A program made the translations under genes and the position numbers. A model generated the notes under the pieces. The model saw only the letters and a program-made list of their open reading frames with translations, ran no database searches and was not told the DNA's origin. A stretch of 64,000 bases of DNA from an uncultured Candidatus Entotheonella sp. (GTDB taxonomy: Bacteria; Tectomicrobia; Entotheonellia; Entotheonellales; Entotheonellaceae), in the NCBI GenBank assembly GCA_958295825.1, contig OY282375.1, positions 1,225,489 through 1,289,488 on the forward strand. The letters are read 5' to 3'. Shown here piece by piece: positions 36,938 through 62,236 of this stretch (position 1 is its first letter; each line of letters begins with the position of its first letter).

Positions 36938-37074
36938 CAATATGAAGTGAGGCACTGCGTCGCTTGAGAGATAGACACGAACCCGGTCCACCATTAAACT
37001 GCGGGCCACACTACGAAATCGGTTCCCGCCAGGGGACTGGAGCCGCGACGACGATGGATACGAGGAGAACCGTG

Positions 37075-37950
37075 ATGGGGCAGCGTTTGGAGGTCGTTGA
37101 GTACACCGACGTGATGTGTTCGTGGGCATGGGGGTCGGAACCGAAGCTGCGGCTGCTGCGGTGGCGTTACGAGGACCGCTGCGACTGGCGGCTGGTAATG
37201 GGCGGCTTGGTAGGCGATTTGACCAAGAAGCCGAACTGGGATCCGGTCGGCCGCGCGCCTCGTTTGTCGGAATACTGGTCCGTGGTGGCTGGTCATACCG
37301 GCAGCCCATACCCGGTATCGCTCAACTGGACGCCTGCCGGCAGCGAGGCTGCCGGCATCGGATTTTGTGCGGCCCGCCTACAGGGAGAAGCCATCGCTCG
37401 TGACGCCCTGCGCCGCATGCGGGAAGCGGTGTTCGTCTTCGGCTGCCCGCCTGACACCCCAGAGCGCGTCATCGACGCCGTCCGCGACACCCCGGGGCTC
37501 GACCGTGAGCGTTTTGCCCGCGACCTCACTGCCCAAGAAGCCCGCGACGCTTACCGACAGGATTGGGACGAAACTCGTCGCCCCAACGATGACGTCCGGC
37601 ACCTTGAAGGCGACTGGCCCGGTATCGGCAACCTGAAGCAGACCGACGGTCTCGACCGTTATGCCTTCCCGACCCTGCTGTTTCGAGGTCCTGGCGGCGA
37701 GCACACAGTCCCCGGCTGGTGCGCTTTCGAGGACTACATCAAAGCCATGGAGCACGCGCTGCCCGGCTCTACCGCCACGCCGCGTTCCGACCCCACCCCG
37801 GCGGAGTTGTTCGACCGCTGGCCGCTGGTTACCGAGCGCGAACTCGAAACCATCTGCGGCCCCGGCAGCCAACCGCCCGCTGGTGTCAAGGCCTACGATT
37901 GGGGCAAGGGCGTCGTGTACCTTCGTACCAAGTTCTACCCGTCGATATGA
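37075..37950 (+). CDS. DsbA-like thioredoxin-fold protein (FrnE/HCCA-isomerase type)
   Basis: The N-terminus VVEYTDVMCSWAWGSEPKLRLL is the DsbA/2-hydroxychromene-2-carboxylate isomerase-type start with a C-S-W-A motif, so only one Cys. An inserted helical domain (RDALRRMREAVFVFG...DTPGLDRERFARDL) and the cis-Pro region YAFPTLLFRG follow. The single Cys argues against a dithiol oxidase. No signal peptide is seen. The ATG at 37075 follows GAGGAG. Length is 291 residues. Confidence 0.75.
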   Translation: MGQRLEVVEYTDVMCSWAWGSEPKLRLLRWRYEDRCDWRLVMGGLVGDLTKKPNWDPVGRAPRLSEYWSVVAGHTGSPYPVSLNWTPAGSEAAGIGFCAARLQGEAIARDALRRMREAVFVFGCPPDTPERVIDAVRDTPGLDRERFARDLTAQEARDAYRQDWDETRRPNDDVRHLEGDWPGIGNLKQTDGLDRYAFPTLLFRGPGGEHTVPGWCAFEDYIKAMEHALPGSTATPRSDPTPAELFDRWPLVTERELETICGPGSQPPAGVKAYDWGKGVVYLRTKFYPSI

Positions 37951-52986: not shown

Positions 52987-53104
52987 TCAGGGTGATGGGA
53001 AATTCTTGCGTGGTGAAGCCTGCAAGCCGTTCAGCCTTCACCAGTGCAGGCGGCGCGCTTGGCGAACACGTGTCCGAATAATATGTCTACCTGAAGGGTG
53101 AAGC

Positions 53105-53372
53105 ATAGAAGTCACATTCAGGGCACGCCAGCTTCGGCAGTGTTGTGAAGAATCGGCCAGAGCCATCCGCCGATGGGGGCCGGAGGTGGGTCGGAAGTTC
53201 ATCACCCGTATCAAGCAGCTTCAGGCCATAACCAGCGCCCAGAAAGTCTATAACATCAAGGCCATGGGGCTCCATCCGTTGAAAGGGTCCAGAAAAGGCG
53301 AATTGTCAATCACGCTGACAGACAGGTGTCGCCTCATTGTGACGACTGAGATCTCCCATGTGGTAATCGGAT
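53105..53372 (+). pseudogene. higB: HigB/RelE-like toxin relic
   Basis: The frame reads IEVTFRARQLRQCCEESARAIRRWGPEVGRKFITRIKQLQAI, then LHPLKGSRKGELSITLTDRCRLIV. This is HigB-like (RelE superfamily mRNA interferase). The codon at the expected start, 53105, is ATA with GGTGA upstream. The first standard start in frame is GTG 53186, well inside the domain. The usual C-terminal strand after RLIV is lost. The antitoxin-like gene follows. It is probably inactive. Confidence 0.6.
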
Positions 53373-53774
53373 GTGGCGATTTCCTCAGGCGAGGTCTTGC
53401 AGGAGGGAATCAAGGCCCGCGGCATGACCCAGAAGGAACTCGCCGCTCGGCTTGGCAGGCCGCCGCAGGTAATCAACGAGATCATCCGGGCGAAAAAGGC
53501 TATCACGCCGGACACGGCAATCGGGCTGGGAAAGGTGCTTGGGATCGCTCCTCAGCACTGGATCAATCTGGAGACCGATTATCGCATGACCCTCGCCTGC
53601 AATCGGGAAGAGGCGGCCCTTGCTGATAATGTGGAGTGGTTGGATGCCTACCCGGTCATGGTTCCTTCACCTCGCAGTCTGTCAAGAAATTTGCCCGATC
53701 CGTCCGAATCGCCCCGTTCATTTGTCGTGGGACGGCTGCTAGAGAAAAAGGGCTTCCCCAACAATCCAGCTTAG
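53373..53774 (+). pseudogene. higA: HigA-like antitoxin, C-terminally damaged
   Basis: An XRE helix-turn-helix is intact (GEVLQEGIKARGMTQKELAARLGRPPQVINEIIRAKKAITPDTAIGLGKVLG). After YPVMVP the frame seems broken: the neighbouring frame reads SVKKFARSVRIAPFI, and this frame resumes VVGRLLEKKGFP, the usual end of HigA/ImmA-type antitoxins. The GTG start has no good ribosome-binding site. It may still bind DNA. Confidence 0.55.
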
Positions 53775-60858: not shown

Positions 60859-61368
60859 TCAGGCGGTTCCGCCAGTCCAGGCGTCAAGGCCCCAAGCATC
60901 ATGCCGCCTCGCAAGCACGGAGGCCAATATGCCCAGCAGAATGAGGTCCCGGATAAGAACGTGCAAGGGTGTTTCACGAATTCCCAGATTCCCGAAACAA
61001 CCGCAGTCGTCGATGGGAATCTGCGCCACCAACACCACCACCATCAACACGCTGAAACCAACCAGCTGGATGCCGACCAACCACGCAGCCGGTGTCGTCA
61101 GAAAACCGATGCACAAGGCCGTGCCGGAGGCGAGCTCGAGCCACGGCAGCCCGGCAGCAATCGGGGACACCAGGAAATCCGGGATCACTTGGTACTGTTT
61201 CACTAGCGCCATCACCTCGCCGTGGGGCAAGATGAGTTTGCTGGTCCCCGAAAACACGAACAATCCGCCGACAAGCACCCGCGCTGCGACAGCCACCCAC
61301 GGCGCGGCACTGACACGCTGCACAAACGCCTGAAGGCGCGATGGTTTACTGTGCTTCCCGTCGTGCAC
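60859..61368 (-). CDS. MauE/DoxX-like membrane protein
   Basis: A 169-residue protein with about four transmembrane helices. They include VAARVLVGGLFVFSGTSKLI, LELASGTALCIGFLTTPAAWLVGIQLVG and LIRDLILLGILASVLA. The motif DCGCFGNLG (residues 121-129) is a signature of the MauE-type branch, which is linked to disulfide or electron transfer. The GTG start at 61368 follows AGGAG and overlaps the thioredoxin-fold gene upstream by 23 nt, so the two are coupled. It is probably the redox partner of that protein. Confidence 0.78.
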   Translation of the reverse strand: MHDGKHSKPSRLQAFVQRVSAAPWVAVAARVLVGGLFVFSGTSKLILPHGEVMALVKQYQVIPDFLVSPIAAGLPWLELASGTALCIGFLTTPAAWLVGIQLVGFSVLMVVVLVAQIPIDDCGCFGNLGIRETPLHVLIRDLILLGILASVLARRHDAWGLDAWTGGTA

Positions 61369-62050
61369 GATCCAGCTCCTGTCGGATGGTGCGAACGAAG
61401 TCGCCTTCTTGTTGCGCCCCAACGATGCGCTTGTCATTGATAAAGACGGTGGGGGTACTGCGCACGCCAAGGCTGCGGCCGTATGCCTTATCGGCGTTGA
61501 TCAGTTTTTCCATGCGGCCGCTTTTCACGCAACTGGCGAGGGCGGCGGTATCGACCCCAATAGCCCCTGCGAATTCCTGCAGGCGCTGACGGGGATCGGA
61601 CAGGCGGCGCCACTGTTCCTGGCGAGCGTATAGCATGCGGTGAAATTCCCAGAATTGTCCCTGCTCGCCCGCACAAAGAGCGGTTTGCGTGGCTACCTCG
61701 CTGGTAGCATTCAGGGTGAAGGGATACAACACCAGTTGCACATCGCCCTCAAACCGGGCAAGCATGCGCTCCATCGTCTCCTGGAGCGCCTTGCAGTGGG
61801 GTCACGTATAGTCGCTGAATTCCTTTATTACGACGGGGGCATTGGGCACACCCTTACTGTAATGGTTATCCAAGGCGCCCTGCAGACGAAGCGGCAGATT
61901 TCGCTGCTGCCAGGAGCGAATTGCCACGCCGGCAGCCAGGACAAGAATCAGAACGACACTGCCCAAAATAAGCCTCTGGCGCCGCTTGGCGGATAGATTG
62001 GCGTTGGATCGCCGGGGCTTCGACCCGCGCGCTGTCGGTTTCTTGGCCAT
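61346..62050 (-). CDS. membrane-anchored DsbA-type thioredoxin-fold protein with in-frame TGA (predicted selenoprotein, UxxC)
   Basis: Read through the TGA at 61804-61802, this is one continuous 234-residue frame. It has a basic N-terminus, a transmembrane anchor (LILGSVVLILVLAAGVAI, about 29-45), then a DsbA-like thioredoxin fold: NAPVVIKEFSDYT-[TGA]-PHCKALQETM and cis-Pro200 in STPTVFIN. The TGA falls exactly where the first Cys of C-P-H-C belongs, giving U-P-H-C with Sec83. A SECIS-like hairpin follows directly. The periplasmic domain would act in thiol/disulfide or peroxide chemistry. Without selenocysteine insertion the product stops after 82 residues. Confidence 0.75.
61766..61789 (-). 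promoter_or_regulatory. candidate bacterial SECIS element
   Basis: On the minus strand, GCGCTCC (61789-61783) pairs perfectly with GGAGCGC (61772-61766) around a 10-nt loop AGGAGACGAT. The loop starts 19 nt after the UGA and has G among its first two bases. This fits the published description of bacterial SECIS hairpins read by SelB. Confidence 0.65.
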
Positions 62051-62236
62051 CAATATCTCGCATTAGGATTGAGTCAATACATTTCCAAGCGTTGCGGGAT
62101 GATACAACAGCGGGGATGGCTGCGCCACCGACGTGAGAATGACAGGGATGCCAATCATGGATAGACATCCCCAAAGGGATTTGCGAGAATCCCCCCGCCA
62201 GTTATCACCCATTTCTCAGCCTCTGAGGTGTGAATC

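Follow-up and report, generated by a model that had tools for sequence, protein, structure and literature searches.

The window analysed here, G000:C1:1225489-1289488, is a 64,000-nucleotide stretch of the genome of an uncultured, sponge-symbiont-type Candidatus Entotheonella sp., which is assembled as a single contig of 4.29 Mb. On the minus strand lies a gene for a DsbA-like selenoprotein (61346..62050), with an ATG start at 62050 and a TAA stop at 61348-61346. The frame contains a single internal stop codon, a TGA at 61804-61802, which was found by direct reading as well as by a computational tool. Read as selenocysteine (Sec), this codon yields a product of 234 amino acids with Sec at residue 83, the first position of a UPHC motif. 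A TTG at 62053 is a possible alternative start, and the length with the TGA read as a residue is then 234-235 amino acids. Directly downstream on the same strand is a gene for a MauE-like four-helix membrane protein (60859..61368) of 169 amino acids, counted from a presumed GTG start at 61368; with this start codon, the two genes overlap by ~23 nt. Almost certainly, as judged from its sequence, the stretch codes for a protein-disulfide enzyme that is anchored in the membrane and has a catalytic selenocysteine.

The interrupted frame and its product

The translated sequence, with Sec included, runs MAKKP...RRQRLILGSVVLILVLAAGVAIRS...EFSDYT-U-PHC-KALQ...STPTVFIND..., followed by the TAA; a standard gene call would split the gene at the UGA. 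A previous sequence-only reading of this DNA had placed an in-frame TGA at the first Cys position of the CxxC motif in a membrane-anchored, thioredoxin-fold gene, and inspection of the frame agrees. No other TGA in the window breaks a frame at a UxxC, CxxU or TxxU motif with a recognisable part of a protein on either side. Elsewhere in the window TGA is the ordinary stop for 13 of 33 long open reading frames, many of them probably antisense; the code is therefore not reassigned, and that explanation of the TGA was ruled out. Insertion of Sec at 61804-61802 is very probable.

The product matches the Pfam families Thioredoxin_4 (95 bits, cut-off 23) and DSBA (78 bits, cut-off 26), and the U-P-x-C motif and the TPT of the cis-Pro loop are invariant in the alignment. 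The AlphaFold model displays a DsbA-type domain, most of it at a pLDDT >90, behind one N-terminal helix, and its best matches among solved structures are DsbA, TsdA, ScsC, alpha-DsbA and BdbD. The features of DsbA/DsbG-like proteins are all present, namely UxxC, the cis-Pro loop and a helical insertion in the thioredoxin fold. Hydropathy points to a single transmembrane segment (61919..61975, minus strand; residues 26-44) that follows a basic, presumably cytoplasmic N-terminus, and the model has a long helix at residues 21-52. One hydrophobic N-terminal segment followed by a DsbA-type domain is thus confirmed, as had been proposed. By the positive-inside rule, the domain is predicted to be periplasmic.

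The best NCBIfam match is NF041057 (Rcas_1661 family thioredoxin-like (seleno)lipoprotein), a family that all ten aligned Sec homologues also match. The score of 117.2 bits falls below the curated cut-off of 190 and there is no lipoprotein signal, so that membership is ruled out and the protein is a relative of this family. No Cys that might serve as a lipobox cysteine occurs among residues 1-82, where the N-terminal helix is found instead.

Two other genes in the window were noted by eye. One, at 36964-37950 on the plus strand, encodes a second, FrnE-like member of the DsbA superfamily that has Cys, not TGA, near its N-terminal active-site region. A RelE/HigB-like toxin frame lies at about 53102-53623, also on the plus strand, with a possible antitoxin behind it in another frame.

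The hairpin, the homologues and the Sec machinery

Behind the UGA is a SECIS-like hairpin (61766..61789, minus strand) that spans nt 13-36 after this codon. Its 8-bp stem is formed by the strands GCGCUCCA and UGGAGCGC and closes an 8-nt loop, GGAGACGA, that begins at nt 21. The hairpin had previously been described as starting at nt 13, which is correct, but with a 7-bp stem and a 10-nt loop from nt 20; the 8-bp form is the better drawing. Limits published for bacterial SECIS elements are a stem of 4-16 bp, a loop of 3-9 nt with G in the first two loop positions, a distance of 16-37 nt from UGA to loop and a minimum free energy <= -7.5 (PMC13188914), and the hairpin lies within all of them. 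An Rfam search of the region returned only a chance match below threshold.

The predicted folding energy is -23 kcal/mol over 61 nt (z -2.9), with none of 200 dinucleotide shuffles equally stable, and -21 kcal/mol over nt 1-48 after the UGA. When the protein was held fixed and synonymous codons were resampled with local codon usage, none of 300 resamplings folded as stably (z -3.8). The excess stability averages z -1.93 at 19 Sec loci and -0.43 at 29 Cys loci (Mann-Whitney p 1.5e-5, or 3.0e-5 with the window gene removed), p-values that are optimistic because the loci are related. In the Sec homologues, but not in the Cys homologues, the hairpin has more stability than the encoded protein would require. 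Conservation of the region, raised as a check in the sequence-only reading, is seen as compensatory change. Over ten aligned Sec sequences, 81% of stem cells are paired, eight double changes occur (a number reached in none of 500 shuffles) and the covariation score of the stem is ~2.4 times that of its best slid version. Column pair 16-39 is G-C, A-U or C-G, and pair 19-36 is C-G, G-C, A-U or G-U. The G004 stem has one C-U mismatch, and the hairpins of G077 and G141 are weak and non-significant in the synonymous-resampling test.

An ATG at 61774 raises the question of two separate proteins, the first a membrane peptide of 82 residues and the second a DsbA fragment of 142 residues that would start anew at this codon. 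The ATG, however, is inside the hairpin, and a restart there would split the thioredoxin fold behind its active site. The position is TTG in two relatives (G002 and G003) and the Cys homologues are single continuous proteins. The two-protein reading is rejected on these grounds as highly improbable.

Homologues were compared in five Tectimicrobiota genomes, which comprise that of the window and four relatives, G001-G004 (G001 is of the same genus and G002 is Candidatus Tectomicrobia KatS3mg131). TGA is at the active-site codon in 5/5 of these genomes, the relatives being at 38-89% identity. It is found at the same codon in further phyla as well: in G091 (Nitrospinae bacterium RIFCSPLOWO2_12_FULL_45_22), G089, G077, G141, G127 and G096. 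Cys occupies the site in most of the best 80 named loci, with Sec scattered over several branches and at least eight Sec/Cys changes of state on the tree. The expectation that homologues would show Cys or Sec at this site thus held. Comparison with the same-genus genome gives a dN of 0.063 and a dS of 0.18 before the UGA, and a dN of 0.048 and a dS of 0.35 after it, which indicates that purifying selection holds both sides of the codon.

Several related loci were noted in the course of this comparison. A Myxococcales locus (L113:3295-4400) encodes two tandem DsbA-like domains with an in-frame TGA at UPFC in each. DsbA-like genes with TGA for Cys and SECIS-like hairpins are found in Chloroflexota and Acidobacteria loci (L125, L137, L079, L081 and L083), and the hairpin loop of L081 and L083 is GTC. 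The Sec-DsbA and MauE genes of G077 are on its contig C14 (L057), and the same genome carries a second UxxC DsbA (L065).

The genome of the window has the complete Sec machinery that had been named as a check: selA (516 bits) with selB immediately behind it, tRNA-Sec (74 bits, anticodon TCA) and selD, the last as an 844-amino-acid fusion. The selenoprotein reading is upheld by this machinery together with the conserved TGA, the compensatory hairpin changes and the Cys homologues, and none of the refuting conditions named in the sequence-only reading was borne out. selA is present in 5/5 of the phylum genomes and in five of the six other Sec-DsbA genomes tested; no SelA was found in G077, a genome that is 97% complete and has both the UGA and the MauE gene. 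SelA alone does not separate the groups, as it is also present in many of the tested genomes with Cys in the best homologue.

A mutation or base-call error that turned TGC or TGT into TGA would leave a pseudogene or an artefact, and a lone in-frame stop formally resembles a nonsense mutation. Five genomes of the phylum, each assembled separately, nevertheless have the identical TGA, as do others; purifying selection persists behind it, the hairpin covaries and the Sec machinery is complete. Such an origin is scarcely credible and is ruled out in practice.

The genome encodes three further likely selenoproteins, each split by TGA, of which two are peroxiredoxins with TxxU and the third is TlpA-like with UxxC (L152, L153 and L156, at G000:C1:1592687-1593097, 1509696-1510073 and 1593296-1593637). 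The TlpA-like gene adjoins one of the two peroxiredoxin genes. SelD (L062:5799-8333) is fused behind a domain that resembles, by eye, an FAD/NAD(P)-oxidoreductase.

The MauE-like neighbour and the direction of electron flow

The overlapping downstream gene, which the sequence-only reading did not mention, scores 77 bits against Pfam MauE (PF07291; cut-off 27) and is the only MauE above the cut-off in the genome. Its AlphaFold model (pLDDT 87) displays four long helices. A fold search with this model gave no solved match at E <= 0.001, so that a redox mechanism is not readable from the structure. A CGC motif (C122, G123, C124; 60997..61005, minus strand) is in the loop that joins helices 3 and 4. 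It is invariant in 18/18 aligned MauE neighbours, its cysteines are the only invariant ones, and the loop is predicted to face the periplasm.

The MauE neighbour is also found in G001-G004, G091, G077 and G141, and Omnitrophota and Elusimicrobia genomes have the two genes in this order too, there with Cys at the active site. This conserved neighbourhood is evidence of association, not of interaction; MauE is a likely functional partner of the Sec protein. MauE might instead be a mere operon neighbour, with the Sec protein working alone or with DsbD. Sec-DsbA homologues without a MauE neighbour do exist (G089, G096 and G127), and a full-length DsbD is encoded in the genome; DsbD could reduce the Sec protein, and the electron partner would then not have to be MauE. 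Set against this, several phyla share the order of DsbA and MauE, whether the active site has Sec or Cys, and it is the other neighbours that vary; a mere neighbour is rather unlikely.

The conserved UGA, the covarying hairpin, the Sec machinery, the DsbA domain and the conserved MauE neighbour were all established computationally. The best overall explanation, held with good confidence, is a Sec-dependent periplasmic DsbA-fold oxidoreductase that would exchange electrons with MauE in either direction. SelB and tRNA-Sec would decode the UGA as selenocysteine, and the hairpin that closely follows this codon would serve as the SECIS element. One N-terminal helix would anchor the product and leave the DsbA-fold domain, with its UPHC motif and TPT loop, exposed to the periplasm, where the UPHC selenol and thiol may exchange with disulfides of substrate proteins. 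The MauE-like partner, through its periplasmic CGC, would take electrons from the Sec protein or give them.

Neither DsbB nor VKOR was found in the genome, in searches that did detect the control proteins. The favoured first guess is that MauE re-oxidises the Sec protein in place of DsbB/VKOR, although net oxidation is put forward only tentatively. A reducing direction is equally open. DsbD, or thiols via MauE, might keep UPHC reduced and the protein would then be a disulfide reductase or isomerase, acting e.g. on apocytochrome c or on oxidatively damaged envelope proteins. Selenols, being strong nucleophiles, lend themselves to reduction and isomerisation. Such a role fits this property as well as the presence of full-length DsbD, and the solved-structure matches include the ScsC isomerase/reductase family. 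In a Nitrospinae genome (L055:2203-5902), the cassette comes immediately after genes for cytochrome c assembly, CcsA-type and ResB; this context is seen in one genome only and is a lead, and the context in the genome of the window (enolase, nadA/nadC side) is uninformative. The reducing or isomerising role, fed by DsbD, may be entertained on a par with the favoured relay, where MauE would take the place of DsbB.

As the two genes overlap and the MauE start comes only after the UGA, synthesis of MauE might depend on Sec having been inserted; the overlap suggests that MauE may be translated only once the UGA has been read through. It is conceivable, though somewhat doubtful, that MauE-like CGC proteins form, next to DsbB and VKOR, a third class of membrane redox partner for DsbA-like proteins, with a relay via Sec and this translational coupling. 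If so, the whole relay would be made only when selenium is available.

Comparison with known systems

No paper that names both Entotheonella and a selenoprotein was found in the literature search, and the literature on MauE with thioredoxins held nothing bearing on a Sec-DsbA/MauE pair. The terms 'MauE' and 'selenoprotein' were found together in a single paper, which deals with Huntington's disease and is unrelated, judging from title and abstract. Tectimicrobiota are not mentioned in the text of a 2026 review (PMC13188914), nor is MauE in the texts of that review and of PMC9312934. The pairing was found nowhere described and the cassette may be new. What is new here is the lineage, the MauE partnership and the misfit to the curated Sec family NF041057; UxxC selenoproteins of the DsbA/DsbG-like type are already known.

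With this locus, Candidatus Entotheonella and the phylum to which it belongs gain a selenoprotein with good support. Through the conserved Sec/Cys swap within one two-gene cassette, nature supplies a selenol and a thiol version of one enzyme for comparison. The MauE partnership, in a genome that yielded neither DsbB nor VKOR, opens a neglected membrane family to tests of a role in disulfide relays.

DsbG-like (PF13462) and DsbA-like (PF01323) UxxC selenoproteins are listed in reviews of the prokaryotic selenoproteome (PMC9312934; PMC13188914), and both families are also in the Sargasso Sea set (PMC1088965). The protein described here shares with them the same Pfam domains over cut-off, the UxxC motif, a SECIS-like hairpin and Cys homologues, but differs in its N-terminal membrane anchor and in the overlapping downstream MauE gene. 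With NF041057 the common ground is the best NCBIfam match; the differences are a score below cut-off and a helix anchor instead of a lipobox cysteine. As in DsbA/DsbB and BdbD/BdbC, a periplasmic DsbA-fold oxidoreductase is found with a four-helix membrane partner that has conserved cysteines, yet the partner here is neither DsbB nor VKOR but a MauE-like protein with a single CGC pair, and the active site has Sec. The MauD/MauE pair has a role in the biogenesis of methylamine dehydrogenase, and no methylamine dehydrogenase genes were seen among the flanking genes read. The likeness to MauD/MauE is a member of the MauE Pfam family beside a thioredoxin-fold protein; in the Entotheonella cassette, however, the partner is DsbA-like and carries Sec.
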